In this document: positions 12,707-30,362 of the stretch, one piece after another
Position numbering within the stretch: position 1 is the stretch's first letter
Layout of the letters: each line of letters opens with the position of its first letter
IMG/VR virus record: IMGVR_UViG_3300009502_000145
Location: 1 to 31,147 of that record
Reading direction: 5' to 3' (one strand)
Source of the DNA: a virus
DNA: 31,147 nucleotides
The notes under the pieces: generated by a model
The model's database searches: none
What the model was told of the DNA's origin: nothing
The model's input: the letters and a program-made list of their open reading frames with translations, nothing else
Translations under genes and position numbers: made by a program

Positions 12707-12856
12707 ATGGGAAGAATAAAAAAATACCAGACAGAAGAAGAACGTATTCAAAAACAACTTGAATATAGTAAAACATATTATTGGAAAAATAAAGATAAAG
12801 TCGATGGAAAAAACAAAGAACGTTATCATAGGAATATACAAGATAACAAGTCCTAG
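12707..12856 (+). CDS. 49-aa ORF overlapping the GIY-YIG start (copy 1)
   Basis: This ORF begins MGRIKKYQTEEER, contains YYWKNKDK and ends RNIQDNKS before TAG. It is homologous to the ORFs at 26415 and 30213: same length, same MGRI start, same YYW-N-K core and same RN(I/L)Q-N-S end. The endonuclease start lies 97 nt downstream in the +1 frame, so the last 53 nt are read in two frames. The basic, aromatic composition resembles Lys/Tyr/Glu-rich N-terminal modules of viral HEGs, possibly DNA-binding. It may be a real overlapping gene, or a relic of a former N-terminal domain. The stop position is partly forced by the nuclease's Pro-Ser-Gly codons. Confidence 0.5.
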   Translation: MGRIKKYQTEEERIQKQLEYSKTYYWKNKDKVDGKNKERYHRNIQDNKS

Positions 12857-13484
12857 TGGAAAAATTTATATAGGTCAAACTACTAATTGGAAGAAGAGGT
12901 TAGGATATTATAATAGATTAGAATGTAAAGGTCAAGTAAAATTATATAATTCATTAGTTAAATATAAATCTGAAAATCATATATTTGAATTTATAGAGGA
13001 ATGTTCGAGTGAATTATTAAATGAACGAGAAATATATTGGGGTGATTTTTACGATGTATTGGGTGAGAATGGATTAAATCTGAAAGAGTTAGGTATAGGT
13101 GGAAAATGGAATGATGAAATGAAAGCTAAAATGAAAGAAAGATGCAATACTCCTGAACATAAAGCTTTCATATCTAATATCCATAAAGGTAAAATAACTT
13201 CTTCAGAAATTAGAGCTAAGATGAGTGAAACTCATTTATCAATGAATAAAACTCAACCAGAAGAATTAAAAATAAAAAGAGGCTTATATAAAAAGCATTC
13301 TCCAGAACATATAGAAAGATTTATTAAATCGGCTTCTAAACCTATTATACATCTTCCATCAGAAGTGATATATGAAAGTATAACTCAAGCCGCTAAAATA
13401 TTAGGAATAGATCATTCTAATATAATAAGAATATTAAAAGGAAGACAAAATAATTATAAAGGAACAACATTTAAATATATTTAA
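12804..13484 (+). CDS. GIY-YIG homing endonuclease (copy 1)
   Basis: The protein has 226 residues from the ATG at 12804. Upstream in-frame starts exist, but homologous copies at 26512 and 30310 start at the corresponding site. The GIY-YIG core is GIYKITSPSGKIYIGQ with a downstream KKR arginine. The acidic catalytic-region segment is LNEREIYWGDFYDVLG. NUMOD3-like helices follow (EMKAKMKER, SSEIRAKMSETH). The C-terminus is an IENR1/NUMOD1-like helix-turn-helix: ITQAAKILGIDHSNIIRILK. Such free-standing enzymes cut a target in phage DNA lacking the gene and drive its copying. It sits just upstream of the virion gene at 13490, so that gene's 5' region is the likely target. Confidence 0.88.
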   Translation: MEKTKNVIIGIYKITSPSGKIYIGQTTNWKKRLGYYNRLECKGQVKLYNSLVKYKSENHIFEFIEECSSELLNEREIYWGDFYDVLGENGLNLKELGIGGKWNDEMKAKMKERCNTPEHKAFISNIHKGKITSSEIRAKMSETHLSMNKTQPEELKIKRGLYKKHSPEHIERFIKSASKPIIHLPSEVIYESITQAAKILGIDHSNIIRILKGRQNNYKGTTFKYI

Positions 13485-13489
13485 AAATC

Positions 13490-14140
13490 ATGGGATTTCA
13501 GAATAATCAACAGATTACAATAGACTGCATTTTGACTCGCGCTGGAAGGGCCGCACTCGCAAAAGGTGATGGGTCATTTAATATTACACAATTCGCCCTT
13601 TCAGACGACGAAATAGATTATACACTTTATAATCCAACACACCCATCCGGTTCTTCATATTATGGAGAAGCTATAGAAGGTATGCCTCTTCTAGAAGCAT
13701 TCCCCGATGAAAATCAGATTATGAAATACAAATTGGTTACATTACCAAGAGGTACTGCTAAAATGCCTGTATTAAGTATTGGTTATCCAGCCATTATATT
13801 AAAACAAGGTGATACACTATCGATTACACCAGCCACTTTAAATTATCTTGGTAATACAACTACCTATGAAACAAGTGGATATGTAGCAACAATTGCTGAT
13901 GCTAGAACAATGTCTTCATTTGAAGGAGTAGGCAAAACAAATGCTGCAGCTACTTCAAATATTTCACTTGGAACTAATCTTTCTAAATCAGTTACAGGTA
14001 CTCAAATAAATCTTAAAGCAACAACCGTCAATACATTATATGGTTCTAATACACAACTCAAAACTACACTTACTGTAGTAGGTATTGATAGTGGTGCTCG
14101 TATAGTGATTCCAGTAACTATTAATAAAATAACAATTTAG
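13490..14140 (+). CDS. Conserved-looking virion structural protein
   Basis: The protein has 216 residues. The N-terminus reads TIDCILTRAGRAALAKGDGS followed by FNITQFALSDDEIDYTLYNP. This is a compact alpha/beta opening of a kind I associate with T4-like phages of low-GC hosts, where such proteins are usually unnamed structural proteins. The C-terminal half is Thr/Asn-rich and beta-rich, possibly an exposed domain. The first 130 nt use more C- and G-ending codons (CGC, GCC, CTC) than the AT-rich neighbours. The original late promoter is probably at 12601, with the HEG now in between. The gene ends 3 nt before the next structural gene. Confidence 0.72.
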   Translation: MGFQNNQQITIDCILTRAGRAALAKGDGSFNITQFALSDDEIDYTLYNPTHPSGSSYYGEAIEGMPLLEAFPDENQIMKYKLVTLPRGTAKMPVLSIGYPAIILKQGDTLSITPATLNYLGNTTTYETSGYVATIADARTMSSFEGVGKTNAAATSNISLGTNLSKSVTGTQINLKATTVNTLYGSNTQLKTTLTVVGIDSGARIVIPVTINKITI

Positions 14141-14143
14141 AAT

Positions 14144-15148
14144 ATGAGCTTTAAAAGATTAGATCCACAGGATTTTATAACTAGTGCTGACTCAGTAGTA
14201 TCTCCTGCTTGGTCTGGAAACGTTTCTGCTTTATCTACATTTTTCACATCATCTACTCAAACAAGTGGGTCTTCTGGAAATTATTATCTAGACATATATA
14301 ATCAAAACCCATCTGCTTCTACTGCTGAAGTTCAATTTAGTATTGCATATGCTAATAAAAATGGAGGAGGGGCTGTTCCATATAATTCTACTATAACTGG
14401 AAGTACTTATACTTCTACTTTGTATGGTCAAATGAGAACTCTTCTTTTAGAAGATGAAAATGCTAGTTTTAGTTTTAATGGAGTAACAAGTGATGATTTT
14501 TATATATTAAATATAAATCGTGCTCGCTATAAAGAAAAATTAATGCCTGGAGCTTGGAATTTACGATTACCAACATCCCCAAGCTCATCTGTTGATCTAA
14601 CTGACAATTCAAATAATGTAGCTCTTCCAGAATATTATGGTACTCAACGTGTATATCAAGTTGTAAATGGATTAAATGGTTCTGGTAGTATTACACCTAG
14701 TTCGGGTTCGTATGGATTATTTTTCCCAGATACTTCTTTATTATTAATGAACCCATTAGCATTAAATATGTCTGTAGCTAATGGTGGAGTATTGTTAGGT
14801 ACATCTACTGTGACTTCTTCAATGGTTCATAATGAGAGAAGATTATTTAATAAATTAAATATTAGTGGTAGTTATTTTCAACTTCAATCTGAAGAAACAA
14901 TTACGTCAAATTATATATTTGTTCGAGCTAGAAATAGTGAATTTAACTACTCAGAAAATCCTAGCTTCATTTCAGGATCAACAGGTGAAGTAATTCATAA
15001 TAGTTTTATTTATAATCCACAAACATACCCAACAACAGTAGGTCTATATAATGATTCAAATGAATTATTGGCAGTGGCTAAATTATCTAAACCATTATTG
15101 AAAGATAGTACGAAAGAATTACTTTTGAGATGCCGTCTCGATTTTTGA
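14144..15148 (+). CDS. Tail/virion protein, paralogue of the next gene at its C-terminus
   Basis: The protein has 334 residues and starts MSFKRLDPQDFITSADSVVS. The body is Ser/Thr/Asn/Tyr-rich and beta-like, with no membrane segment. The last 70 residues (EFNYSENPSFISGSTGEVIH, then TVGLYNDSNELLAVAKLSKP) align with the end of the 298-residue protein that follows. Both also start MS.FK.L..QD.I.S. This implies duplication of a structural gene. A role in the tail, fibre or capsid decoration is plausible from context only. Confidence 0.72.
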   Translation: MSFKRLDPQDFITSADSVVSPAWSGNVSALSTFFTSSTQTSGSSGNYYLDIYNQNPSASTAEVQFSIAYANKNGGGAVPYNSTITGSTYTSTLYGQMRTLLLEDENASFSFNGVTSDDFYILNINRARYKEKLMPGAWNLRLPTSPSSSVDLTDNSNNVALPEYYGTQRVYQVVNGLNGSGSITPSSGSYGLFFPDTSLLLMNPLALNMSVANGGVLLGTSTVTSSMVHNERRLFNKLNISGSYFQLQSEETITSNYIFVRARNSEFNYSENPSFISGSTGEVIHNSFIYNPQTYPTTVGLYNDSNELLAVAKLSKPLLKDSTKELLLRCRLDF

Positions 15149-15151
15149 CCC

Positions 15152-15171
15152 ATCCCATAATTAACTGGGAT
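15152..15171 (+). promoter_or_regulatory. Small hairpin between paralogous structural genes
   Basis: ATCCCA and TGGGAT form a perfect 6-bp stem around an 8-nt loop (TAATTAAC). It fills most of the 33-nt gap between two structural genes. No T-tract follows, so it is not a standard terminator. It may be an RNA-processing or attenuation element, or chance. Confidence 0.35.
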
Positions 15172-15181
15172 AAACTATAAT

Positions 15182-16078
15182 ATGAGCGTTTTTAAAACAT
15201 TAACCTCCCAAGATATTATTGTATCTCCATTTGAAGTAAATAAGTCGTTTACATTCATAGGTGGAGATACACTCTTATCTGCTAGTATTCAAAGATATAT
15301 AGGCACAAATAATGGAGAAGACCTAATATATAATTCAATAAAACAATTGTATTACTCAAATTACATTTCAGGAAGTGATGGAAATATTTCTAACTCAGCA
15401 ACTGCTAGTATAGGATCAGATGGTTTATATTATGGAGAAGTTTATTCTACTTTATATCAAAACTATTTAGCAACCGATTTAAATCCACAACGTTATTTCC
15501 CAACTAGTTCAGGTAATATTATTGGCGTGATGTCTATCCCTAAAGAATTATTTGGAGATTATATCCAACCTAATTCATTACATATTGTTACTCCAAGTGG
15601 AAGTTATAAAGATGATGGAGAAGGACGGTTATATAATTCATCAATTCTTTTATCATCTATTTATGGAACAGGAATTTATGGAGGAAGTATATATGGTAAT
15701 ACAATATATTGCGGAAACGTAATATATGAACATGGAATTGTAGTTCTTATTAAAGGAGGAATCCCCTCAATAAACAATTTTATTTCTTCAACAGACATTC
15801 AAGTTTCATTCTCTAGTTCATATACTTTATATGAAACACAATATAAATGCACTATATCAGAAAACGAATTCAATTATACTAATAATCCGTCTGTTATAAC
15901 AGGAAGTGATGGTAGACTATATAATCATTTTACTGGGTCATATTTTGCACCATATGTCACAACTATAGGTTTATATAATAATAATGAAGAATTACTTGCA
16001 ATAGGAAAACTAGCACAACCATTACCAACATCAAGAACTTCTGATATGAATATTATATTATCAATTGATCGTTTATAA
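15182..16078 (+). CDS. Tail/virion protein, paralogue of the preceding gene
   Basis: The protein has 298 residues starting MSVFKTLTSQDIIVSPFEVN. The central part is beta-rich, with a short Gly/Tyr run (IYGTGIYGGSIYGNTIYCG, about residues 160-178) that looks like a repeating turn. The C-terminus (EFNYTNNPSVITGSDGRLYN, then TIGLYNNNEELLAIGKLAQP) matches the end of the 334-residue protein. It probably occupies a similar place in the particle. The next late promoter begins 3 nt after the stop. Confidence 0.72.
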   Translation: MSVFKTLTSQDIIVSPFEVNKSFTFIGGDTLLSASIQRYIGTNNGEDLIYNSIKQLYYSNYISGSDGNISNSATASIGSDGLYYGEVYSTLYQNYLATDLNPQRYFPTSSGNIIGVMSIPKELFGDYIQPNSLHIVTPSGSYKDDGEGRLYNSSILLSSIYGTGIYGGSIYGNTIYCGNVIYEHGIVVLIKGGIPSINNFISSTDIQVSFSSSYTLYETQYKCTISENEFNYTNNPSVITGSDGRLYNHFTGSYFAPYVTTIGLYNNNEELLAIGKLAQPLPTSRTSDMNIILSIDRL

Positions 16079-16081
16079 TCA

Positions 16082-16095
16082 TATTTATAATAAAA
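16082..16095 (+). promoter_or_regulatory. Putative late promoter TATTTATAATAAAA
   Basis: This is an exact copy of the late-type motif, followed by CAATATT and the ATG at 16103. Its leader closely matches those after 21355 and, with the start codon lost, 12601. Confidence 0.62.
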
Positions 16096-16102
16096 CAATA
16101 TT

Positions 16103-16393
16103 ATGGCAAAATTACTCAACCAGTATAATACAGATATCGAAACTGGAGATATCATTCAATCGTCTCATATCACACAGTTTGCAGATGCTTTAACTGGAAA
16201 AGAAGAATATAATATAAGTATATTTGGTTCTTTAAAATTAACAGGTTCATTTGATGTAAAGCGTTCAATAAGTATTTATCCTATTGATATATTTGATGAC
16301 AATGCAGATGCCTCTTCATTACCGTTAGGTAAAGTATATATGGCGTCTGGGGATGGAGCTAATCCAAAAGGAACATTAATGATAAAATATTAA
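16103..16393 (+). CDS. Small structural-type protein, possibly fibre-associated
   Basis: The protein has 96 residues. The N-terminus (LLNQYNTDIETGDIIQSSHI) and the middle (EYNISIFGSLKLTGSFDVKR) form regular short beta strands. The strand pattern SLKLTGSFD is common in phage fibre and tail-tip proteins. The C-terminus ends GTLMIKY. It has its own late promoter. I do not recognise a named family. Confidence 0.72.
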   Translation: MAKLLNQYNTDIETGDIIQSSHITQFADALTGKEEYNISIFGSLKLTGSFDVKRSISIYPIDIFDDNADASSLPLGKVYMASGDGANPKGTLMIKY

Positions 16394-16418
16394 AAAATAA
16401 TATTTAGTAATATACAAA

Positions 16419-16544
16419 ATGATTAATTTTATAAAATATTTAATATATAAAATATATTACATTTTATATTTAAAAAATTCATATGGTTATGGTAAATATT
16501 CTAAATCTATATATACAAAACTTTTAAAAAATATAAAAAAATGA
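16419..16544 (+). CDS. Possible 41-aa peptide, Tyr/Ile/Lys-rich
   Basis: This short ORF fills most of the 147-nt gap between two genes. It starts MINFIKYLIYKIYYILYLKN and ends LLKNIKK, and its TGA overlaps the next ATG (ATGA). The first half is hydrophobic and could be a single membrane helix with a basic tail. The region is extremely AT-rich, so a chance ORF is a real possibility; the coupled stop/start is the main support. Confidence 0.3.
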   Translation: MINFIKYLIYKIYYILYLKNSYGYGKYSKSIYTKLLKNIKK

Positions 16545-17464
16545 ATGACACATTTGATTTAAAAGCCTATCTAGGTAGTAAACGCCTATTAACTGAAAAT
16601 TACGAACCTGTTTCTGAAGAAGAATCAATAAATGATAATTACTATAAAGAATTAGACCCAAAAGCGGCTATTGATAAAGCAACCATTGATTTCCAACACG
16701 CTAATAAAACTGGTAATGATGGGTTAGCTAATAAAATTGCTGGAAATTTAAAAATCTATCTAGATTATAAACAATATGATTGGAAAAAAGATCCAAAAGC
16801 ATTAGAAATATTGGATGGATTTTTAGATGAAAATATTAATGGAAATCAATCCTCAAACATAATCCGTCAATTAAAACCTGGACAAGAATATACATGGTTT
16901 ATGGGTGCTTCTCCTATGAAATGTACTTATATAGGGAAAGATGAAAAAGAACCTACATATACATTTAAGTTAGGTAATTCGATTCATAAATTATCTATTA
17001 AAGATGTAAAAGACTTCATTGAACCATTAAGTACATATGAAGAATATGCCGCTGAAAGTAATATTGATGAAGCTAATAAATTTACTTTAGGTAAACATGG
17101 TATTAAGAAGCGCCTTAAAACCGCAGTCAGACAAGCTTTAACTGAAAAGAAGAAAATCAAAAAAGATTTAGATCCTGAAGATATCGATATCGAAAGTGCA
17201 TTTACAAAAGAACCTGAAGTAGAAGAAAATCCTGAACCACAACCAGACGAACAAGCAGCAGCTCCAGTAGATGTTAATCCAATCGATACTTCAAATACTG
17301 AACAAAAACCAGGATTCTCTAAAGAAGAACAAGAAATTCAGAATTCTCTAAAGGTAGCTTATGATCACGCTACATCAATTGGTGATCAAAAATTAGCGAC
17401 TCAAATAGGAAATTCACTGAAATATTTTGTAAAAATGCATGTTGTATCACAGGATCTTAGCTAG
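16541..17464 (+). CDS. Acidic/lysine-rich protein with duplicated segment and FDLKAYLG leader
   Basis: The protein has 307 residues. The first 20 include FDLKAYLGSKRLLTEN, a leader nearly identical, including at DNA level, to that of the frameshifted gene at 22661. Residues 41-74 (ATIDFQHANKTGNDGLANKI) and 269-297 (KVAYDHATSIGDQKLATQIG) are an internal duplication. Residues 110-165 form a small beta domain (GQEYTWFMGASPMKCTYIG). Residues 186-206 (GIKKRLKTAVRQALTEKKK) resemble a segment of the next protein. A Pro/Glu-rich linker follows at 223-262. The LLTE end of the leader resembles the L/I-x-E prohead cleavage sites of T4 internal proteins, so an internal capsid role is inferred. Confidence 0.78.
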   Translation: MNDTFDLKAYLGSKRLLTENYEPVSEEESINDNYYKELDPKAAIDKATIDFQHANKTGNDGLANKIAGNLKIYLDYKQYDWKKDPKALEILDGFLDENINGNQSSNIIRQLKPGQEYTWFMGASPMKCTYIGKDEKEPTYTFKLGNSIHKLSIKDVKDFIEPLSTYEEYAAESNIDEANKFTLGKHGIKKRLKTAVRQALTEKKKIKKDLDPEDIDIESAFTKEPEVEENPEPQPDEQAAAPVDVNPIDTSNTEQKPGFSKEEQEIQNSLKVAYDHATSIGDQKLATQIGNSLKYFVKMHVVSQDLS

Positions 17465-17467
17465 GAA

Positions 17468-18007
17468 ATGTTAGATAAAAAGACAGTTGATTTAAAGGAT
17501 AAAATATTTAAAGCGATGATGACTAATAAAAGAGAATTAGTCAGACGCTATGGAAAAGACGCTGAAAAAGTAGCAATGGGAAAGAGTATTTCACAGGCTA
17601 AAAAGCAAATCGAAGCGAACGCTGATGATAATATAGATGAAAGTTTTTCCATTAAATTAAAAGAAGCTGTTAAACAATGTTTATCCGAAAAAATTGATAA
17701 AAATGGAGATGAATGGGAAGACCCAGAAGAATATAATAAAGATTTAACTGATTATGAACCTTCCCAAAAAGAAATAGACGATTTCAAACGCGATGAACAA
17801 GGTTTACCTCCTAAACAACAATATCAACCACAAGTAAAACCCGAATATACTGGATGGGCTTATCTTGAAGTAAGTGCTGGATTAGGTAAATGGAGTACTG
17901 TAAAATATGGTCCAAATAAAATTATATATGGGCAATACACTAAATTAATTAAAGAAGATCCCAATAATAGTAATCGTTATAGAGTAGTCCCAGAACGTAA
18001 AAGATAA
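17468..18007 (+). CDS. Small charged protein, unknown function
   Basis: The protein has 179 residues and lies 3 nt after the preceding stop. The N-terminus includes KRELVRRYGKDAEKVAMGKS, a helical basic segment. Residues 60-76 (FSIKLKEAVKQCLSEKIDK) resemble residues 190-206 of the preceding protein. An acidic Pro/Gln-rich middle leads to a C-terminal beta-rich domain (GWAYLEVSAGLGKWSTVKYG, about 133-152). I recognise no family. The shared motif and placement suggest function together with the upstream gene. Confidence 0.75.
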   Translation: MLDKKTVDLKDKIFKAMMTNKRELVRRYGKDAEKVAMGKSISQAKKQIEANADDNIDESFSIKLKEAVKQCLSEKIDKNGDEWEDPEEYNKDLTDYEPSQKEIDDFKRDEQGLPPKQQYQPQVKPEYTGWAYLEVSAGLGKWSTVKYGPNKIIYGQYTKLIKEDPNNSNRYRVVPERKR

Positions 18008-18012
18008 ATAAG

Positions 18013-18516
18013 ATGAAATTATCAGAATTTAGAGCCAAAATACAAAAACTCGCTAAAGAAGTTTATAAAGAAAAATCTAAATCAGATGATTCAGCTTTAG
18101 CATACGATGAATTAACTAAATTTCCTGAACTCAAAAAAGTAATTGTTGATTTATTAACATCAGATTTCGCAAAATTCCTCGAATCTATTGATTGGGTCGC
18201 TCCTAGACCTTCAACATTTCGTGTAAATCTCTTGAATTCTCAAAATTTCCTTATTATATTCACTGAAAGAAGCTGGATAGCTCAGGTAGAAGGGAAGAAG
18301 TATTATTTATTGAATTTAGATGAAGAAGAAAGAGCAGCCGAATCTATATCACGAATATTACAATATGGGGCAGTCGTAAAAAAAGATGAGTTCGGAGAAG
18401 ATATAATAGATGAACCAAAAAAGAAATCTAAAAAATCTTCAAAATCATCATCCTCTAAATCTGAAACATCACCTCCTGCTGAAGAAGCACCAAACCCAGA
18501 AGACGAATTTAAATAA
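18013..18516 (+). CDS. Small protein with basic helical N-terminus and Ser/Lys tail
   Basis: The protein has 167 residues. The N-terminus MKLSEFRAKIQKLAKEVYKE follows the M-x-x-S-E-[LF]-[RK] pattern of the REEI leaders at 28903 and 29883. Residues 55-115 form a compact alpha/beta core (STFRVNLLNSQNFLIIFTER, then KKYYLLNLDEEERAAESISR). The last 35 residues are low-complexity Lys/Ser then Pro/Glu. No known domain is recognised. Confidence 0.77.
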   Translation: MKLSEFRAKIQKLAKEVYKEKSKSDDSALAYDELTKFPELKKVIVDLLTSDFAKFLESIDWVAPRPSTFRVNLLNSQNFLIIFTERSWIAQVEGKKYYLLNLDEEERAAESISRILQYGAVVKKDEFGEDIIDEPKKKSKKSSKSSSSKSETSPPAEEAPNPEDEFK

Positions 18517-18520
18517 AACT

Positions 18521-18754
18521 ATGGAAATCAGAAAATTAATTCGTCAACTTATAAAAGAAGAATTAAGCACTCTCCCTTTAATCAACTCGAAGAAGAAATA
18601 TGAATTCTCGTATGAAGAGATAAATCTTATTAATAGAGATTTGGAGAAGCTAAATTCTTTCTTATATTCACAAACAAACAACTCACCAGACTTGGCTGAC
18701 AAGAAGATGAGACTTAAACGAATTATCAAAATAATTGATAAGAAACTTTTGTAG
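18521..18754 (+). CDS. 77-aa helical protein with REEI-type leader
   Basis: The ATG at 18521 is chosen because it lies 4 nt after the preceding stop. The frame stays open upstream, but there it would overlap the preceding gene. The protein starts MEIRKLIRQLIKEELSTL, a leader like those of the 28903 and 29883 proteins. It continues with two helices (EINLINRDLEKLNSFLYSQT, then DKKMRLKRIIKIIDKKLL) that could form a hairpin or coiled coil. Function is unknown. Confidence 0.68.
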   Translation: MEIRKLIRQLIKEELSTLPLINSKKKYEFSYEEINLINRDLEKLNSFLYSQTNNSPDLADKKMRLKRIIKIIDKKLL

Positions 18755-18775
18755 TATAAACAAAACAAATATTAA

Positions 18776-19870: not shown

Positions 19871-19881
19871 CGATCTCTGCG

Positions 19882-23251: not shown

Positions 23252-23307
23252 CATTCAGACTGATTTATAGCCAGTCGTTTTCAAAAATAAAATTAATTGA
23301 TAGTTGT

Positions 23308-23340
23308 AGCATCTCTTTTTGGAGATGCTCTTCTGTTTTT
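23308..23340 (+). terminator. Rho-independent terminator
   Basis: AGCATCTC and GAGATGCT form a perfect 8-bp stem around a 6-nt loop, followed by CTTCTGTTTTT. It closes the operon ending with the frameshifted gene. A weaker 5-bp hairpin (GACTG/CAGTC, 23258-23276) followed by GTTTT lies just upstream. The remaining gap to 23444 holds a CGC-rich patch but no supportable gene. Confidence 0.85.
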
Positions 23341-23444
23341 ATATATTAAATAAATGCGATTTAAACGAGGAAAATACATAGTCGCCACGTTTGGTGGATG
23401 ATAATAGATAATCGCAAATATCGCGTTAAATACAGTAATATAAT

Positions 23445-23705
23445 ATGCAAATCAACGGAACTAAAACAGAAAGAATTTGGGTAGATATATCTATAGAAGA
23501 TATATTTGGATTATTAAATGGTTATTTAAAATTTGGAAGTGGTGTGTGGGTTGCTAAATCTGAAAATAATCCTGATAAGTTAGCTTTATGGTCTGATCAT
23601 GGTGGTTCTCATTATAGTGAAGGTCAAGACAGAGAATTAACTGAATCTGAACAGGAATATTATGAAGCATTACAAGTTATTAAAAAATATTTAAAAGATA
23701 AATGA
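23445..23705 (+). CDS. 86-aa protein of unknown function
   Basis: The protein starts MQINGTKTERIWVDISIEDI and has a compact alpha/beta core (FGLLNGYLKFGSGVWVAKSE, then LALWSDHGGSHYSEGQDREL) ending in a helix (EYYEALQVIKKYLKDK). It stands alone between a terminator and an HEG. The upstream stretch with TCGCAAATATCGCG resembles a CGC-containing patch before the gene at 229, perhaps a shared regulatory sequence. No family is recognised. Confidence 0.72.
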   Translation: MQINGTKTERIWVDISIEDIFGLLNGYLKFGSGVWVAKSENNPDKLALWSDHGGSHYSEGQDRELTESEQEYYEALQVIKKYLKDK

Positions 23706-23744
23706 AAAGTTTTAACAGGAGTTTGTTTTGACTTTAAAGTCATA

Positions 23745-23757
23745 TATGTATAATAAA
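23745..23757 (+). promoter_or_regulatory. Putative HEG-class promoter TATGTATAATAAA
   Basis: An exact TATGTATAAT lies 22 nt before the GIY-YIG gene at 23777. Just upstream is a perfect 12-nt palindrome, GACTTTAAAGTC (23730-23741), and a TTGACT with 15-nt spacing to TATAAT. The spacing of the upstream box differs from the other HEG promoters. Confidence 0.55.
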
Positions 23758-23776
23758 CAATCAAATATTATTTATT

Positions 23777-24745
23777 ATGACTTACATTTATATTTTAGAA
23801 AGAAACGAAATCCCATTTTATGTTGGTAAAGCAAAAGATTTTATTAGGAGAAAAGGCAAACATAAAGAATTATATGGTAAAGATATAATTATGACTATAA
23901 TTGATAGTTGTGGGGATGAATATGAATGTTGGAAACCATTAGAAAAATTTTGGATATCATATATTAAATTTTTAGGATTTGAATTAACTAATAAAAATAA
24001 TGGTGGAGGAGGTCCTTCAAAATATACTGAAGAATCTAAAATAAAAATGAGAAAACCACGAAAAGAAGGAACTGGTGCTAAAATATCTAAAACTTTATTA
24101 AAAAACAATCATTCAAAATATTACACAGATGATGTAAAGCAAAAAATGAGTAATGGAATGACCGGTTTAAAAAGGGGACCTATTTCTGAAGAAACAAGAA
24201 TAAAAATTAAAGAAGGATTAAAAGATCATTCAAAACATTATACTCCTGAAATTTGTCAAAAAATGAGAATAGCATTAAAAGGAAGTCATGGTGGACCACT
24301 TTCTGAAGAACATATAATTAAGATGAAAGAAGGTAGACGAAAAAAATCAAAAAGAGTATTTCAATATGATTTGAATGGAAAATTTATTAAAGAGTGGAGT
24401 GGGAAAGGAGAAATATCAGATTGGGTTAAAGAAAATGAAGAAAGAGCTAGAACCCAAAATGTAATATCTCAAATAAATGATTGTTGTATAGGTAAAATAA
24501 TAAGTTGTTGGGGCTATATATGGAGATTTAAAGATGAATTTATTCCTGTAATTCCTAAATATTATCCTATTGAACAATATTTAGATGATAAATTTATAAA
24601 TGAATTTTATAATGAAATAGAAGCTGAAAATTATATTATAGAAAATAAATTAAGTAATAATAAAGATAAACCAAGAGATTTATTAAAATTGAGTATAAAA
24701 AAAGATCGAAAATTTTGTGGGTTTAAATGGAAATATAAAAAATAA
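23777..24745 (+). CDS. GIY-YIG homing endonuclease, divergent type (322 aa)
   Basis: The GIY-YIG equivalent is YIYILERNEIPFYVGKAKD with the following Arg in FIRRKGKH, and a catalytic-region Glu in LEKFWISYIKFLG. Three NUMOD3-type repeats follow (EESKIKMRKPRKEG, EETRIKIKEGLKDH, EEHIIKMKEGRRKK). A NUMOD1-like module comes next (RVFQYDLNGKFIKEWSGKGE ... CWGYIWRFKDEF). The C-terminal 70 residues appear to contain a second such ending (FCGFKWKYKK). Its core differs from the other three GIY-YIG genes, and it has no 49-codon overlapping ORF. It lies 6 nt before the oxidoreductase gene. Confidence 0.87.
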   Translation: MTYIYILERNEIPFYVGKAKDFIRRKGKHKELYGKDIIMTIIDSCGDEYECWKPLEKFWISYIKFLGFELTNKNNGGGGPSKYTEESKIKMRKPRKEGTGAKISKTLLKNNHSKYYTDDVKQKMSNGMTGLKRGPISEETRIKIKEGLKDHSKHYTPEICQKMRIALKGSHGGPLSEEHIIKMKEGRRKKSKRVFQYDLNGKFIKEWSGKGEISDWVKENEERARTQNVISQINDCCIGKIISCWGYIWRFKDEFIPVIPKYYPIEQYLDDKFINEFYNEIEAENYIIENKLSNNKDKPRDLLKLSIKKDRKFCGFKWKYKK

Positions 24746-24751
24746 ATAAAT

Positions 24752-26053
24752 ATGAAAAAAATAATTTATGTAGGTGCAGGTGTGTCAACACAATATGGAG
24801 TTTTACATTTATTAAAAAATGGTTATAATCCAAAAGATATTATAATTATTGATAAAGGAAATTCGATATACACTCGTAAATCTGATGAAGTTATGTGTGG
24901 TAGTGGAGGATGCGGAACCTTTTCAGATTTTAAGGTTCTGCAGTCGTGGACTCAAGGTGGTATATTTACTCCAGAATATGTTGAACAAGAAGTCGCTGAT
25001 CAATTAGGTGAACAAGTCATCAAATATATTAAAGAATTTCATCCAGACGAGTCTAAAATAATGTATACTTCTCCAGAAGCAGAACCACAATGGTTAAAAG
25101 ATTCTCCATTCGAACTCAAACAAGCTCCTGTGCTTCATCTTGGAACTGATTTTGGACGTAAGCAAGTGCAAAATATATTTGAGTATTTTGATAATATGGG
25201 TGTAACTCAATATTATAATACAGAAGCTATCGATATTGATTTTGAAAATAAGTTTATTTGGATTAGATATAAAGATCAAAATAGGATTCAACCTTTAGAT
25301 TACGATAAAGTAATTTTGGCAGGAGGCAAATCAGGTGTAGATTTTTTAGATAAACTTATTCATAAATATAATTTAAAAACAACTCCACGTGCTACACAAA
25401 TTGGATTGAGATATGAAACAGATGCAAGATACTTTAAAGATTTATTATCATTTGCTTATGATTTTAAGTTATATAAAAGATGGGGAAATGTAAGTGGTAG
25501 ATCTTTTTGCTGCAACTCAGGAGCAGCATTTGTAGCACCCGAAATAACATATAATCAAATTACTTTCAATGGACATTCCTTAAAGAATCCGGATAAATTA
25601 AATGATAAAGTGAATTTTGGAATTATGTTAGAAATTAAAAATGAGATAGAAGATCCATACATATTCTGTCAACAACTCGTTTCATTTTTTAATAAAGATG
25701 GTAAAGGTGCTTCATATTCTCCTACTAATAGACAATCATCCAAAACGGACGAAGGTAAAGATATGCCTTGTTATCCAACTACATTAGAAAATTTGAAGAA
25801 GGGTTACGGGAAATATGCTAATCATATAATGGAATTTATAGAAGATTTAAACAAGACGTTTGGAATAGAAGATAATTACATAACATACTTACCAGAAGTC
25901 AAATATTCATCCAATACTTTGATATTTAACCATTCAGATTTCTCACTTATAGATCATCCAGATGTCCATATACAAGGTGATCAGGCGACCAGCCGCGGAA
26001 TTTGGCTGGCCAGTATAATAGGTTTATATGTTGCTAATAGCTTACTCAACTAA
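24752..26053 (+). CDS. FAD-dependent oxidoreductase (COG2509-like)
   Basis: The protein has 433 residues. The N-terminal dinucleotide-binding fold is IIYVGAGVSTQYGVLHLL with the acidic end of strand 2 at IIIIDKG (Asp34). CGSGGCGTFSDFKV (about 49-62) resembles the G-G-x-G-T-F-S-D segment of uncharacterised FAD-dependent dehydrogenases. A second nucleotide-binding strand is VILAGGKSGVDFLDKLI. The C-terminal FAD-contact motif is IQGDQATSRGIWLASIIGLYV, in the place of the usual GD....RGI.QA..SG. It is therefore expected to bind FAD and oxidise or reduce an unknown substrate in the cytoplasm. Many Cys (C49, C54 and a CC pair) could be redox-active. It is an unusual cargo gene next to an HEG. Confidence 0.82.
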   Translation: MKKIIYVGAGVSTQYGVLHLLKNGYNPKDIIIIDKGNSIYTRKSDEVMCGSGGCGTFSDFKVLQSWTQGGIFTPEYVEQEVADQLGEQVIKYIKEFHPDESKIMYTSPEAEPQWLKDSPFELKQAPVLHLGTDFGRKQVQNIFEYFDNMGVTQYYNTEAIDIDFENKFIWIRYKDQNRIQPLDYDKVILAGGKSGVDFLDKLIHKYNLKTTPRATQIGLRYETDARYFKDLLSFAYDFKLYKRWGNVSGRSFCCNSGAAFVAPEITYNQITFNGHSLKNPDKLNDKVNFGIMLEIKNEIEDPYIFCQQLVSFFNKDGKGASYSPTNRQSSKTDEGKDMPCYPTTLENLKKGYGKYANHIMEFIEDLNKTFGIEDNYITYLPEVKYSSNTLIFNHSDFSLIDHPDVHIQGDQATSRGIWLASIIGLYVANSLLN

Positions 26054-26079
26054 CTTGTCTTATCAATAAATTATAATTA

Positions 26080-26090
26080 TATTTACAAAA
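26080..26090 (+). promoter_or_regulatory. Degenerate late-type promoter TATTTACAAAA
   Basis: The leader TATTTACAAAATTAAAATAACAATATT before the ATG at 26107 resembles the late promoter plus ACAATATT leader seen at 16082, but with changes in the TATAAT part. It probably serves the 79-residue gene. Quoted parts overlap the site only at its 5' end. Confidence 0.35.
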
Positions 26091-26106
26091 TTAAAATAAC
26101 AATATT

Positions 26107-26346
26107 ATGGAAGAATATGCTAAAGAACAGATTTTAAAGAAAGAAGATGGCACAGAAGCCCACGTACTAGACAAACGACTACATTGTTGGGACGGAGCTG
26201 CACTTCGTTTCCCTAAAGCTCTAAAACAGAAAGACGAATATTACATTTATGGTATTCATTATACAAAAGAACAATGGGAAGAAATGAGAAAGAATAGAGA
26301 AGGCTTACCCTTTTTCAAACAATCAGGAACCAAAATGAGAAATTAA
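26107..26346 (+). CDS. 79-aa protein of unknown function
   Basis: The middle (LHCWDGAALRFPKALKQKDE, then YYIYGIHYTKEQWEEMRKN) resembles single units of short repeat proteins in phages that have a DGPA...YPDG...YW.NG pattern; only one unit is present. The N-terminus is charged and there is no membrane segment. It ends 69 nt before the second 49-codon ORF/GIY-YIG locus. The homing target may lie near its end or near the start of the 69-residue gene after the HEG. Confidence 0.7.
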   Translation: MEEYAKEQILKKEDGTEAHVLDKRLHCWDGAALRFPKALKQKDEYYIYGIHYTKEQWEEMRKNREGLPFFKQSGTKMRN

Positions 26347-26383
26347 GTCTCATAACAGTGCTTACTTTGTAACAGTTTTTGTA

Positions 26384-26412
26384 ACTTTTATTAATCTTAT
26401 AATATGTATAAT
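26384..26412 (+). promoter_or_regulatory. Putative HEG-class promoter (ACTTTT-N17-TATAAT)
   Basis: An exact TATGTATAAT ends at 26412 with ACTTTT 17 nt before TATAAT. TTTGTAAC occurs twice just upstream. The 49-codon ORF starts only 2 nt after the motif, so a transcript begun at normal spacing would start inside or after its ATG. Confidence 0.55.
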
Positions 26413-26414
26413 CG

Positions 26415-26564
26415 ATGGGAAGAATTAAACAACATTTAACTAAGGAAGCCAAATTGGCTGCTAAAAATAAAGCTTCTCACAAATATTATTGGAATAATAA
26501 ACAAAAATGTGATGAAGAAGCAAAAGAACGCTATTATAGGAATTTACAAAATAACCAGTCCTAG
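26415..26564 (+). CDS. 49-aa ORF overlapping the GIY-YIG start (copy 2)
   Basis: The ORF starts MGRIKQHLTKEAKLAA, contains YYWNNKQK and ends RNLQNNQS before TAG. Length, offset to the endonuclease start (97 nt, +1 frame) and 53-nt overlap equal those of the copies at 12707 and 30213. The overlapping TATGTATAAT motif so close to the ATG makes translation from this promoter doubtful. That is the main argument that the ORF could be a relic. Confidence 0.48.
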   Translation: MGRIKQHLTKEAKLAAKNKASHKYYWNNKQKCDEEAKERYYRNLQNNQS

Positions 26565-27273
26565 TGGTAAAATTTATATAGGACAATCCGTTAATATAGA
26601 TGAAAGGAAGAAAGTTTATAAACGTATTAACTCATTAGTTGGACAGCCTAAAATATATCGTTCAATAAATAAGTATGGTTTCGAAAATCATACTCATGAG
26701 ATAATTGAAATATGTTCTATAGAACAACTGGACGAACGCGAAACTTTTTGGAAAAAATATTATTTAGAACAAGTCAATAACGATTGGCAACAAGTATTAT
26801 TTTGTGAATTATACGATAATGGTGGAGGTCCTAAATCTGAAAAGACAAAACTTAAAATGAGAAAACCTAGATCGGAAGAAGCCAAAAAGAATATGAAATA
26901 TCCTAAATCGGATAAATTCAAAGAAATAGTAAGGTTAGCTCATATAGGTAAACCTAAATTAGCTGCTCGAGGCATACTTAGATCAGATGAATCAAAATTA
27001 AAGATGAGTTTATCTCGAATGGGTCAATCAATATCTGAAGAAACCAAAATAAAAATGAGTTTAGCTAAGAAAGGGAAACCTAATTTGAATAAAGGAATAC
27101 CCAAATCCGAAGAATTTAAGAAACACATGAGAAAACCATGTGTGATTAAAGGAGTAGAATATATTTCTAGATGGGAAGCTGCAGAAATATTAGGAGTGAC
27201 AGCAAATGATGTTAATCATTGGATACTTAATCCAAAACCTAAATATGATGATTGTTATTGGTTACACAAATAG
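26512..27273 (+). CDS. GIY-YIG homing endonuclease (copy 2)
   Basis: The protein has 253 residues from the ATG at 26512; an in-frame GTG lies just before. The core is GIYKITSPSGKIYIGQ, with DERKK carrying the arginine and the acidic segment LDERETFWKKYYLE. A Gly-rich linker (DNGGGPKSEKTKLKMRKPRS) begins a row of NUMOD3-like motifs (SDESKLKMSLSRMG, EETKIKMSLAKKGK, SEEFKKHMRKP). The C-terminal helix-turn-helix is WEAAEILGVTANDVNHWILN. It resembles copy 1 closely in the catalytic part and less in the DNA-binding tail, as expected if each copy recognises a different site. It ends 23 nt before the 69-residue gene. Confidence 0.88.
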   Translation: MKKQKNAIIGIYKITSPSGKIYIGQSVNIDERKKVYKRINSLVGQPKIYRSINKYGFENHTHEIIEICSIEQLDERETFWKKYYLEQVNNDWQQVLFCELYDNGGGPKSEKTKLKMRKPRSEEAKKNMKYPKSDKFKEIVRLAHIGKPKLAARGILRSDESKLKMSLSRMGQSISEETKIKMSLAKKGKPNLNKGIPKSEEFKKHMRKPCVIKGVEYISRWEAAEILGVTANDVNHWILNPKPKYDDCYWLHK

Positions 27274-27296
27274 GATGAAATTAAAAATAACTAAAT

Positions 27297-27506
27297 ATGG
27301 ACAAACAACGTTTACAGGAGTTAGCAGGCATAACTCCAACCTCACAAAAATTAGCATCGCTTATCTCTTCCTCAATTGCATCTATTGATCCTAATATGTC
27401 ATATAAAGATTTAGCAGGAGCAGTCGCTATCGTATTGAAAAATGAATATGGAACTCATAATTATGAAAAATTTATAGGAACATTGAAATCTAATTTAGAA
27501 GAATGA
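27297..27506 (+). CDS. 69-aa protein with RLQELAGI leader
   Basis: The protein starts MDKQRLQELAGITPTSQKLA. The QELAGI opening recurs, in my experience, in small proteins of T4-like environmental phages. The remainder is helical (ASLISSSIASIDPNMSYKDL, then YEKFIGTLKSNLEE). It is sandwiched between two HEG loci. Function is unknown; the short helical leader fits the group of proteins here with modular N-termini. Confidence 0.68.
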   Translation: MDKQRLQELAGITPTSQKLASLISSSIASIDPNMSYKDLAGAVAIVLKNEYGTHNYEKFIGTLKSNLEE

Positions 27507-27527
27507 TGGAAATTTGTTGATTTTCCA
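27507..27527 (+). terminator. Weak hairpin, possible terminator
   Basis: TGGAAA and TTTCCA form a 6-bp stem with a 9-nt loop right after the stop of the 69-residue gene. The following TAGCTCTTATAT is only moderately T-rich, and the 3' arm overlaps the upstream box of the HEG promoter, so this is tentative. Confidence 0.35.
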
Positions 27528-27548
27528 TAGCTCTTATATATGTATAAT
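27520..27548 (+). promoter_or_regulatory. Putative HEG-class promoter (ATTTTC-N17-TATAAT)
   Basis: An exact TATGTATAAT ends at 27548, with ATTTTC exactly 17 nt before TATAAT. The endonuclease ATG is 28 nt downstream. Confidence 0.55.
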
Positions 27549-27576
27549 ATATAAGACAACTGTAAATCAATAAATA

Positions 27577-28323
27577 ATGCCTGCAAAATCATCCCAAGAA
27601 GAATTTATTAAAAAAGCTAATCTGAAACATAATTTTTATTATGATTATTCATTGGTAGAATATATTGATGCTAAAATTAAAGTAAAAATAATATGTCCAA
27701 AACATGGTGTATTCGAACAACAACCTAATAATCATTTATTTGGTCAAGGATGTGTTTGGTGTATGGGTGATAGAGTAAAAAAAGCTAGAACATCCAATAC
27801 ATTTGATTTTATTAATAAATCTAAAAAAATCCATGGGAATAAATATGATTATTCTTTAGTTAATTATAAAGGAGGGAAATATAAAGTTATAATAATTTGT
27901 CCAAAACATGGTGAATTTCTTCAAACTCCTTTTGCTCATTCAAGTCCATCAATGACACAAGGGTGTCCATTTTGTAAAATATCAAAAGGAGAAGATGAAA
28001 TAGAAAAATATTTATTGAAAAATAATATATTATATAAAAGAGAGCTTAGATATAAAAATTGTATAAACCCAAAAACAAATAAAACTTTACCTTTTGATTT
28101 TTATATTCCTGATTTAAATTTAATAATAGAATATCATGGTGAACAACATTATAAAAAAATGGGGGGTTATTTTGAGGAAAGAGATGGAGGATTAGAAGGA
28201 AGACAATATAGGGATAATATTAAAAAACAATATTGTTTAAATAATAAAATAAATTTTTTAGAAATATCATATACAAATTTTAATAAAATAAATTTAATAT
28301 TAGATGAATACTTTACAAAATAA
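27577..28323 (+). CDS. Vsr/PD-(D/E)XK-like homing-type endonuclease with duplicated zinc-ribbon modules
   Basis: The protein has 248 residues. Two similar N-terminal modules follow one another: FYYDYSLVEY...KIICPKHGVFEQ...GCVWC (about 20-62) and KYDYSLVNYKGGKYKVIIIC followed by PKHGEFLQTP...GCPFC (about 87-130). Each has a Cys-x2-3-His and a C-x-x-C pair, probably a small zinc-binding DNA contact. The C-terminal part has FDFYIPDLNLIIEYHGEQHY, with Asp, Glu and His-Gly-x-Gln-His residues, then RDNIKKQYCLNNKINFLEIS. These are hallmarks of Vsr/EDxHD-type nucleases. It should cut DNA at a specific site. Its 3' end overlaps the ATPase gene by 20 nt. Confidence 0.8.
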   Translation: MPAKSSQEEFIKKANLKHNFYYDYSLVEYIDAKIKVKIICPKHGVFEQQPNNHLFGQGCVWCMGDRVKKARTSNTFDFINKSKKIHGNKYDYSLVNYKGGKYKVIIICPKHGEFLQTPFAHSSPSMTQGCPFCKISKGEDEIEKYLLKNNILYKRELRYKNCINPKTNKTLPFDFYIPDLNLIIEYHGEQHYKKMGGYFEERDGGLEGRQYRDNIKKQYCLNNKINFLEISYTNFNKINLILDEYFTK

Positions 28324-28858
28324 AATATGTCGTATAGGATTTACTAGTACACAATCGTGTGGTAAAAGCACATTGGTCAAAGCACTAGCAGAGCTTCCTG
28401 AATTTACTAATTTCCATATTTCAACAGAGCGATCAAAATACTTAAGAGATCTCGGTATCAAATTGAATGGATCGTCAGATGTATACGGTCAGGTTATATT
28501 TTTGAGTGAACGCTTAAATGAACTTCAAAACGACTTGCTGATAAGCGATAGGTCAATTTTGGATGTTATGTCATTTACCTCACTATCGACAGAAATTTCT
28601 GAACAAGACAAGAATCGTTTTGAAGTGTTTGCTGCTCCATTTATCAAACAATACGATTATATATTTTATATCTCTCCTGATGGAATGGATTTAGAAGATA
28701 ATTCAGTTCGTGATACAGATCCTGAATTTAGAGCGGCCGTAGATAATAAAATTAAACATTATCTTGATTATTATGGTTTCAATATCAAAAATTTCAAGCA
28801 GATTTCTGGAACAGTAGAAGAAAGAATTGCAGAAGTATTGCAAACTGTAAAATTTTGA
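28304..28858 (+). CDS. P-loop ATPase/kinase, AAA_28-like
   Basis: The protein has 184 residues. The P-loop is GFTSTQSCGKSTLVKAL at about 12-28. The first Gly of the standard Walker A is replaced by Ser, leaving S-T-Q-S-C-G-K-S. Downstream motifs (FHISTERSKYLRDLGI, then LLISDRSILDVMSF, a likely Walker B-type Asp-Arg, and YDYIFYISPDG) match the order in AAA_28/NadR-type nucleotide kinases. Phosphorylation of a nucleotide or nicotinamide riboside-like substrate is possible but unproven. The ATG at 28304 lies inside the end of the endonuclease gene, and no later Met precedes the P-loop, which supports this start. Confidence 0.8.
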   Translation: MNTLQNKICRIGFTSTQSCGKSTLVKALAELPEFTNFHISTERSKYLRDLGIKLNGSSDVYGQVIFLSERLNELQNDLLISDRSILDVMSFTSLSTEISEQDKNRFEVFAAPFIKQYDYIFYISPDGMDLEDNSVRDTDPEFRAAVDNKIKHYLDYYGFNIKNFKQISGTVEERIAEVLQTVKF

Positions 28859-28860
28859 CA

Positions 28861-28873
28861 TATTTATAATAAA
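28861..28873 (+). promoter_or_regulatory. Putative late promoter TATTTATAATAAA
   Basis: An exact late-type motif beginning 2 nt after the ATPase stop. The ATG of the 326-residue gene is 29 nt downstream, after a leader containing AATATTATAAT. Confidence 0.62.
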
Positions 28874-28902
28874 TAACTAATCAAAAATATTATAATTATC
28901 AA

Positions 28903-29883
28903 ATGAAGAAATCTGAATTGCGTTCTCTAATTAGAGAAGAAATAACAAGTACACTTAAAGGAGAACAGCCATTAGATGAAATGGCAAAGATTCAAGGCGA
29001 ACTCAAAGCAGCTATTGAAGCTGTTATAGAAGACAATCCTGAACTTGATGGTAAAGAATTGAAACGAGCTATTAGAAAAGATCCAGACGTTCTAGATGCA
29101 CTCGATTTAGATAATGCTGATGAGCTTTATGATAATCAGTTAAATAAATTTATCGCGTTAATTAGAGGTGAACGTACTCTTAATCAACGTGGTAGAAAAG
29201 AAGGTGGTTCTAATAAGAAACCTGAAGCAGAAGCTCCTGAACGCGAAATGACTATGGAAGGTGAAGAAGAAATTGACGAAATGGCTAAAATATCAGGTGA
29301 CCTAGAATCAGCTATTAAAGCAGTTATTGCTGCAAATCCTGAAATAGAAGGTTTACCATTGAAAAAACAAATCAAAGCTAACCCAGACGTAATCAAAGCG
29401 TTAGATGGTGATGATTTATATGATAATCAATTAAATAAATTTATCGCTAATATTAAAGCTGGTAAAGATAAAGGACAACAAGGTCGTAAACCATCCGAAG
29501 CTAAACCAGCTGCTCCTGGTGCTCCTAAATCATCTATTACTCCAGCCAAACCAAAAGAAAAAGCATATTCGATTGCTCCTTCTCAAACAGCATATACTGT
29601 TGATAAAACAAAACCGACAGACGATAATGATAAGTTAAAAGGTGTTGCTGAACCAACTGATTATGAATTGAAGCAAATGGCTCGTTCTAGAAATGTAGAG
29701 GATGAACGCGATGAAACACTTAAACAACAAGAAAAACGTAAATTGATTAAAGCATTCTTGGCTAAAATGCAAAAACAAGGTGTTGTTGATAGCGCTAATC
29801 GAGTTTTAAATCGCCAAGAATATGATTCACAGTGGGAAAAATATCAACCTCTTATTAAAGCTAAATTAGCGACTATACAATAA
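28903..29883 (+). CDS. REEI-leader protein with tandem 75-aa repeat
   Basis: The protein has 326 residues. It starts MKKSELRSLIREEITSTL, a leader shared with the next gene. Two homologous segments follow. Residues 24-99 include LDEMAKIQGELKAAIEAVIE and YDNQLNKFIALIRGE. Residues 124-197 include IDEMAKISGDLESAIKAVIA and YDNQLNKFIANIKAG. An Ala/Pro/Lys-rich linker leads to a helical C-terminus (LIKAFLAKMQKQGVVDSANR). The composition is charged and largely helical with no catalytic motif. It may be an internal or scaffold-type head protein, cleaved at L/I-x-E sites, but that is inference. The stop overlaps the next start by one base (TAATG). Confidence 0.78.
   Translation: MKKSELRSLIREEITSTLKGEQPLDEMAKIQGELKAAIEAVIEDNPELDGKELKRAIRKDPDVLDALDLDNADELYDNQLNKFIALIRGERTLNQRGRKEGGSNKKPEAEAPEREMTMEGEEEIDEMAKISGDLESAIKAVIAANPEIEGLPLKKQIKANPDVIKALDGDDLYDNQLNKFIANIKAGKDKGQQGRKPSEAKPAAPGAPKSSITPAKPKEKAYSIAPSQTAYTVDKTKPTDDNDKLKGVAEPTDYELKQMARSRNVEDERDETLKQQEKRKLIKAFLAKMQKQGVVDSANRVLNRQEYDSQWEKYQPLIKAKLATIQ
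28972..29493 (+). repeat. Coding tandem duplication within the 326-residue gene
   Basis: Two copies, about 28972-29199 and 29272-29493, encode the DEMAKI...YDNQLNKFIA repeat, separated by an acidic linker. Conservation is clear at protein level and partial at DNA level (GATAATCAATTAAATAAATT in the second copy versus GATAATCAGTTAAATAAATT in the first). Confidence 0.75.
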
Positions 29884-30078
29884 TGAAGAAATCTGAATTC
29901 AAATCATTCCTTAGAGAAGAGATTAAACGTAAACTATCAGAAACTACAATTGTAGATAAAACAACTGATGTAAATAAAGTTGATGATATTGCTCGTTCGG
30001 AAAAAGAAAGATCCTAACACAATTAAAGCGGCTATTACTCAAGCAAAAACGTCCGGACAACCTGTCACAATAGCATAA
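29883..30078 (+). pseudogene. Small REEI-leader gene with one frameshift
   Basis: The first frame reads MKKSEFKSFLREEIKRKL and then VNKVDDIARSEKERS to a TAA at 30015-30017. The +1 frame continues coherently from about 29998 (KKKDPNTIKAAITQAKTSGQ, then PVTIA) to a TAA at 30076-30078, just before a terminator. Removing one base near the GTTCGGAAAAAG tract would give a single protein of about 64 residues. A homopolymer error is the simplest cause. A truncated 44-residue product or true frameshifting are alternatives. Confidence 0.6.
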
Positions 30079-30110
30079 CATTTTTTCATACCTTTCTTTT
30101 TTTTATTTTT

Positions 30111-30147
30111 ACCCTCCAGCCTTTGTGAAAAGTTTGGAGGGTTTTTT
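30111..30147 (+). terminator. Strong Rho-independent terminator
   Basis: ACCCTCCA and TGGAGGGT form an 8-bp GC-rich stem around a 16-nt loop, followed directly by a run of T (TTTTTTG). A preceding T-tract (30091-30110) lies on the 5' side. It ends the 28903-30078 operon and isolates the HEG/terminase unit. Confidence 0.88.
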
Positions 30148-30170
30148 GTCTTATTTTGACTTCTTTTGTG

Positions 30171-30199
30171 ACTTTCCCTAATTTCGTCATATGTATAAT
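30171..30199 (+). promoter_or_regulatory. Putative HEG-class promoter (ACTTTC-N17-TATAAT)
   Basis: An exact TATGTATAAT followed by AAA, with ACTTTC 17 nt before TATAAT. The 49-codon ORF starts 13 nt downstream. With a terminator just upstream and the terminase start just downstream, this may be the main promoter visible for the terminase gene. Confidence 0.57.
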
Positions 30200-30212
30200 A
30201 AACACATAGTTT

Positions 30213-30362
30213 ATGGGGAGAATAACTAAATACAAAACAATAGAAGAGAAGAAACATGCTCAGCTATTGGCTTCCAAAAAATATTATTGGAATAATAAAG
30301 AACAAGAAGATGGCAAAGCAAAGGCTAGGTACCATAGGAATTTACAAAACAGTAAATCCTAA
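30213..30362 (+). CDS. 49-aa ORF overlapping the GIY-YIG start (copy 3)
   Basis: The ORF starts MGRITKYKTIEEKKHA, contains KKYYWNNKEQ and ends RNLQNSKS before TAA. It has the same length, +1 relation and 97-nt offset as the copies at 12707 and 26415, although the third-copy nuclease has diverged here (TVNPKG instead of TSPSG). Because the reading frame stays open and similar despite these changes, selection on it is plausible. Here the promoter-to-ATG distance (13 nt) would allow translation. Confidence 0.52.
   Translation: MGRITKYKTIEEKKHAQLLASKKYYWNNKEQEDGKAKARYHRNLQNSKS

Follow-up and report, generated by a model that had tools for sequence, protein, structure and literature searches.

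In the viral record IMGVR_UViG_3300009502_000145 of IMG/VR (positions 1 to 31,147, analysed at its full length of 31,147 nt and called the window below), three open reading frames (ORFs) of 49 codons each overlap the start of a downstream GIY-YIG homing endonuclease gene (HEG). These ORFs had been singled out in an initial annotation, and we confirmed their coordinates (Table 1) and geometry: at all three loci the nuclease ATG lies 97 nt downstream of the ORF start (position +97) in the +1 frame, the overlap is 53 nt, and the encoded peptides have MGRI, YYW-N-K and RN(I/L)Q-N-S in common. The downstream genes all code for GIY-YIG homing endonucleases with NUMOD-type C-termini (weak in the third). 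Each ORF is preceded by a late-promoter-like motif, TATGTATAAT, whose end lies 5 nt from the ATG in cassette A, 13 nt in cassette C and 2 nt in cassette B, where the annotation had rightly cautioned that the motif nearly touches the start codon. Further upstream lie two copies of a short tandem repeat.

Table 1. Features of the three peptide–nuclease cassettes (A, B and C) in the window
Feature	Coordinates	Strand	Basis
A, tandem 12-bp repeat TTTTCTTCGATC/TTTTCTTAGAAC, putative operator	12663..12686	+	sequence; shuffle test p=0.042
A, late-promoter-like TATGTATAAT	12692..12701	+	T4 late TATA box rule, PMC2988020
A, 49-codon ORF	12707..12856	+	family-wide purifying selection
A, conserved codons 1-41	12707-12829	+	
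A, GIY-YIG/NUMOD1 homing endonuclease, start overprinted within peptide codons	12804..13484	+	PF01541 E=2e-5, NUMOD1, phrog_314 1.4e-30
B, tandem repeat CTTTGTAAC-AGT-TTTTGTAAC, putative operator	26365..26385	+	shuffle test p=0.040
B, late-promoter-like TATGTATAAT	26403..26412	+	sequence match
B, 49-codon ORF	26415..26564	+	sequence; AlphaFold2 one helix, residues 10-46, pLDDT 89
B, GIY-YIG/NUMOD3 homing endonuclease	26512..27273	+	phrog_314 7.8e-25
C, degenerate repeat TTTTGACTTC/TTTTGTGACTTTC	30154..30176	+	sequence comparison
C, late-promoter-like TATGTATAAT	30190..30199	+	sequence match
C, 49-codon ORF	30213..30362	+	sequence
C, GIY-YIG homing endonuclease	30310..31020	+	phrog_314 3.7e-25

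Relatives were collected from IMG/VR with peptide queries and a DNA pattern. This search produced 77 distinct cassette versions, a recurrence beyond chance; as most of the searches were derived from the peptide, badly decayed copies would escape detection. The peptide start codon is ATG in 76 versions and GTG in one. The downstream ORF, whose start was chosen by a script, begins at +97 in 52 versions and at +121 in nine (a few others at +127, +136, +142 or +157) and, with rare exceptions, lies in the +1 frame relative to the peptide. The ATG at +97 is composed of the Asp33 codon and the G-starting codon of the next residue (GAT-G in all 55 versions of class 1), and the ATG at +121 of the last two letters of an AT-terminated codon plus the G that comes next (T-ATG); the nuclease start is therefore overprinted on the peptide. 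In cassettes with the nuclease start elsewhere, position 34 is mostly Lys, Arg or another residue, with no ATG formed there.

The conserved unit consists of the putative T4-type late promoter and the first ∼41 codons. Across the family the stand-alone peptide ORF mostly has 42-60 codons, with conservation confined to about codons 1-41; beyond this point the tail is variable because it is nuclease DNA read out of frame. Of the features proposed as conserved in the initial annotation, the start and the interior of codons ∼1-41 hold throughout the family; the exact length of 49 and the RN(I/L)Q tail do not, being common to the three window ORFs because the DNA after codon ∼41 is that of a GIY-YIG gene read out of frame.

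In the 55 class-1 versions, selection on the peptide was assessed over those codons that precede the nuclease start. The peptide frame is free of stops in all of them, while the two other frames contain stops in 31 and 55 of the 55. The ratio of non-synonymous to synonymous polymorphism (pN/pS) was 0.44 in the peptide frame versus 0.90 and 1.17 in the other frames, and one clade of 18 sequences had a pN/pS of 0.054 in the non-overlapped peptide codons. In 26 disjoint nearest-neighbour pairs we counted 127 synonymous and 114 non-synonymous differences, compared with 53 and 188 expected under neutrality; the corresponding ratio of substitution rates (dN/dS) is ∼0.25 (p=2.7e-25). The peptide frame also remains the one under greater constraint in the overlapping part, as far as codon 41. 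Freely accumulating stops or indels, or a dN/dS near 1, had been named as observations that would speak against a functional peptide; neither was seen. In a search begun from the nuclease, the peptide frame was intact in close, full-length, cassette-bearing relatives, and no cassette was found in the distant relatives that this search returned. Purifying selection on the frame outside the overlap makes synthesis of the peptide very probable, and we have high confidence that the cassette is real and that its peptide is translated.

The cassette spans different nuclease families and has its own upstream tandem repeats, two features that go beyond the initial annotation. In the largest clade, loci with different types of nuclease are ∼0.95 identical from about −42 to +120 and ∼0.33 identical on both sides of this segment; pairs with the same type of nuclease retain high identity downstream and are equally random (about 0.3) upstream of −42. 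Given these sharp borders, the cassette is a segment of ∼165 bp situated at varied genomic sites and before varied nucleases. Upstream flanks differ between copies of the cassette, also where both copies precede one type of nuclease, as for an element at different insertion sites. Among the downstream enzymes are several GIY-YIG groups, HNH, EndoVII-like, DUF723-type and NUMOD3 zinc-finger types; matches to PF01541, NUMOD1/3, phrog_314 and other families identify these genes as predicted free-standing HEGs. By these comparisons the cassette is a mobile unit common to different nuclease families. Neighbours other than HEGs were a terminase large subunit gene (L111) and an exonuclease gene (L112). 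A single contig (L048) has three cassettes (at 937, 2501 and 4260) with three nuclease types and three repeats, a different one at each cassette.

Directly upstream of most cassette promoters, a 9-12 bp unit stands twice in tandem. In comparison with dinucleotide shuffles, the repeat was significant (p<0.05) in 25 of 36 clade representatives versus 3 of 63 control late promoters on the contigs of these cassettes; owing to shared ancestry, the tests behind the combined p of 1.7e-20 are not fully independent. The period depends on the clade: most class-1 cassettes have 12 bp, those of class 2 have 14 bp, and the GRLKKY...KKQRA and L066 clades have 11 and 13 bp, respectively. The unit and the spacing vary between peptide clades, yet the two copies in a cassette match each other. 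Upstream similarity among cassettes with similar peptides was 0.78 for different and 0.76 for the same nuclease type, versus 0.53 for dissimilar peptides; it thus tracks the peptide and not the type of nuclease. Each of seven phage contigs contains the repeat of the largest clade (the Q-clade) a single time, at its cassette. We therefore rejected a genome-wide transcription factor site as an explanation of this repeat, a reading weakened also by the mostly repeat-free state of other late promoters. Use of the repeat as a nuclease target is disfavoured because one and the same repeat precedes different nucleases. The repeats have the properties expected of a private operator read by a factor encoded in the cassette, of which the peptide is the only conserved product. 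At one locus (L112, 1581-1610) a tandem repeat and TATGTATAATCG stand without a peptide ORF before a zinc-finger-type nuclease gene; it looks like a cassette that has lost its peptide.

In the window, all exact plus-strand copies of TATGTATAAT (at 12692, 19901, 23745, 26403, 27539 and 30190) lie upstream of homing-type nuclease genes, and the one-mismatch form TATTTATAAT lies upstream of several other late genes; the window HEGs seem to rely on a late-promoter variant of their own. Assignment as a T4-type late promoter is putative, based on a sequence match; promoters of this type have an 8-bp TATA box, roughly one turn of the helix before the start, and lack a −35 element. T4 late TATA boxes start at −13 (PMC2988020). 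The motif begins 12 nt before the peptide ATG in 41 of the 55 class-1 cassettes, and T4 spacing would thus predict a transcription start at this ATG within about one base. Among 21 diverse cassettes no conserved RNA hairpin of the kind found at T4 mobE and I-TevI was predicted.

Sequence evidence for independent initiation of the nuclease at the internal ATG is strong. In seven of nine class-2 cassettes a GGAG sits exactly 7 nt before the nuclease ATG, inside the (R)MEKYY codons. Such an embedded Shine-Dalgarno site was absent in 52 of 52 class-1 cassettes, in line with hosts that do not use Shine-Dalgarno sequences; at the listed gene starts of the window these are nearly absent. Two GIY-YIG nuclease genes, L042 (TATTTATAATAAATG) and L236 (1501), begin right at the position of the peptide start behind a late promoter and have no peptide. 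The peptide is therefore optional for making a nuclease, and the arrangement suggests that very short or leaderless mRNAs are the norm in these phages. Along with purifying selection on the non-overlapped codons, the independent start and the Shine-Dalgarno sites embedded in class 2 support the earlier suggestion of a separately translated accessory or regulator.

The peptide is basic, with a median net charge of +7 over 41 aa. AlphaFold2 predicted an extended N-terminus of GRIKKY type and, after it, a single helix (residues 10-46, pLDDT 89), a shape compatible with DNA binding. Searches of Pfam, NCBIfam and PDB sequences produced nothing meaningful, and PHROG matches were weak and limited to families of unknown function. 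Three queries against 50,697 records of cultured phages gave no convincing match; bacterial and archaeal genomes gave one weak match, in a Thermoplasmatales metagenome-assembled genome.

From these observations we propose the following model. Late RNA polymerase would start at or beside the peptide ATG, to judge from the spacing, and yield a leaderless or nearly leaderless mRNA. The peptide would be translated from it, a step with strong evolutionary evidence, and the nuclease would be initiated independently at the internal ATG, an embedded Shine-Dalgarno being present in phages that use such sites and absent in the group of the window phage. The basic, single-helix peptide may then bind its own repeats just upstream of the promoter and regulate that promoter, most likely by autorepression that caps nuclease output, with activation as the alternative. 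The cassette, a portable 5′ expression unit of free-standing HEGs in T4-like phages, would accordingly consist of two tandem repeats, a late promoter, the start codon (on the predicted transcription start or a few nt beyond it), ∼41 conserved codons and an overprinted +1-frame nuclease start; we give this composite an even chance of being right. A role of the peptide as a regulator that binds the cassette repeats seems to us about equally well and poorly placed to hold. The further proposal, that each basic peptide recognizes its own tandem repeats as a clade-specific minimal regulator–operator pair passed among homing endonuclease families, is possible, with the balance leaning slightly the other way. 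Repression as opposed to activation is a tentative choice and rather doubtful. Different nucleases could be placed behind the cassette because it would supply timing, dosage control and a start codon.

Several observations weigh against the proposed regulator and operator. The repeat of cassette C is degenerate (its first copy is seemingly 2 nt shorter than in L032), and several other cassettes have no significant repeat. Repeat and peptide are co-inherited, so their covariation could reflect descent alone. Neither a known DNA-binding fold nor a solved homologue was found for the peptide, whose AlphaFold2 model is an isolated helix. Finally, a start at T4 spacing falls on the A or T of the ATG in most class-1 cassettes; were transcription to begin 1-2 nt further on, the mRNA would lack the ATG. 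Selection on the reading frame speaks for a leaderless mRNA rather than for such a loss.

The peptide could instead be a detached DNA-binding subunit, a former N-terminal domain that works together with the nuclease, in trans, on the target or in the course of homing. Its charge and predicted helix would suit such a role, and a 254-aa protein that starts MGRIKKYLTEEEK (L118, 2257-3018) carries the same module in frame, ahead of further segments rich in Lys and Tyr and an HNH/EndoVII-like motif at its C-terminus (DIDHIIPL; assigned by eye, with no Pfam or PHROG match). The cassette peptide may therefore be a freed N-terminal domain, or the reverse may be true; the ‘former N-terminal domain’ of the initial annotation is thus plausible as an origin. 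As a present function a nuclease-specific partnership is unlikely, because near-identical peptides serve different nucleases; moreover, related nucleases are also encoded where no cassette is present, in two cases (L042 and L236) directly behind the promoter, and the clade-specific repeats would be left unexplained. The same in-frame module, together with the +1 frame of the overlap, might point to a programmed +1 frameshift that fuses peptide and nuclease into one protein, as had also been suggested. We consider this very improbable: the nuclease ATG is retained at +97 or +121, class-2 cassettes have the embedded Shine-Dalgarno, and some nuclease genes have no peptide. A programmed-frameshift fusion would be expected to have a slippery site and no separate downstream start; no common slippery motif was seen, and a downstream start is present. 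Frame +2 is shut by stops in every class-1 sequence, so +1 overlaps are favoured regardless of frameshifting.

Translation of the short ORF might also limit nuclease synthesis through coupling or ribosome interference, with the amino acids of minor importance. The starts of some T4 HEGs overlap upstream ORFs, with suspected coupling (PMC2988022), and a geometry fixed at +97 or +121 would fit such a device. However, a dN/dS of about 0.25 (0.05 in one clade) indicates selection on the amino acid sequence; the start is fixed but the stop is not, the nuclease start about 30-70 nt before the stop is a poor geometry for reinitiation, and the 21 diverse cassettes share no conserved RNA structure. We regard such a device as improbable. 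Sharp borders and exchanged downstream modules are what would be seen if the DNA were kept as a noncoding recombination arm for swapping nuclease modules, with the ORF incidental. That explanation is contradicted by the dN/dS result, and third-position bias, the stop-free frame, conserved start codons and protein sequence kept between clades with diverged DNA make it the least credible of those considered.

For the regulatory reading, the best model is a peptide functionally like the C proteins of restriction–modification operons. In the pvuIIC–pvuIIR operon a leaderless transcript begins at the regulator ATG, the regulator acts on its own promoter and the start of the endonuclease is uncoupled (PMC2997769). 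As in C-protein operons, the small regulator gene comes first, and the endonuclease start there lies near or overlaps the regulator end (within about 20 nt); the cassettes show this overlap of regulator and endonuclease ORFs, and their cassette-specific repeats are putative counterparts of the C-protein operator repeats. C proteins, however, carry a helix-turn-helix and control restriction enzymes, whereas the cassette peptide is shorter, basic and single-helix; the cassette also differs in its phage late promoter, its longer overlap, a nuclease start overprinted in conserved codons and the many different nucleases behind the same unit. With no Pfam or NCBIfam helix-turn-helix match and a single helix in the AlphaFold2 model, the peptide lacks this motif and is therefore not a member of the C-protein family.

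Like the cassette nucleases, T4 seg and mob genes are free-standing HEGs of GIY-YIG or HNH type, some with a late promoter upstream, and several overlap the upstream ORF (segC by 20, segF by 11, mobA by 23 and mobC by 24 bp) (PMC2988022). In T4 the overlapped ORF is a resident phage gene, whereas the cassette ORF is mobile and conserved across insertion sites; the conserved RNA hairpin of T4 was not found in the cassettes. I-TevI offers a homing system that represses its own late promoter through an adjacent operator (PMC2988022); there the nuclease itself is the repressor, while the cassette candidate is a peptide distinct from the nuclease, and it is this peptide that the repeats track. The repressor CapR, which shares homology with the DNA-binding domain present in ICP1 T5orf172 HEGs (PMC10448857), is a precedent for a HEG DNA-binding domain acting alone as a transcriptional repressor. 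It differs in having another domain, in being satellite-encoded and directed against phage capsid expression, and in having no HEG overlap. We found no description of such a peptide–nuclease pair in the open-access literature, subscription papers being outside the search.

If the regulatory reading is true, it reveals a way in which selfish nucleases can uncouple the control of their expression from the enzyme itself, with catalytic modules exchangeable behind one mobile module, an independent homing-endonuclease counterpart to C-protein control. It would also provide a family of candidate DNA-binding peptides of roughly 40-60 residues with putative operators, in dozens of natural variants suited to studies of specificity. 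Such ORFs are easily missed by gene callers, being short and overlapping a larger gene.

The window phage is T4-like and a relative of Flavobacterium phage immuto, with which it shares 43.5% identity in the baseplate wedge protein. A copy of TATTTATAAT lies at 12601-12610, after a gene for a 1733-aa protein, and the first HEG unit stands between this late-promoter-like motif and the next structural gene, at 13490, as if inserted there. The L118 gene is located just upstream of a tail gene resembling that at 13490. At another locus (L111, 2501-2659; = L077) a peptide gene without a nuclease lies between a terminase-like ATPase ORF and the terminase large subunit gene, the start of which overlaps the peptide gene in the +1 frame; this is perhaps a trace of HEG loss or of an ancestral use of the peptide.

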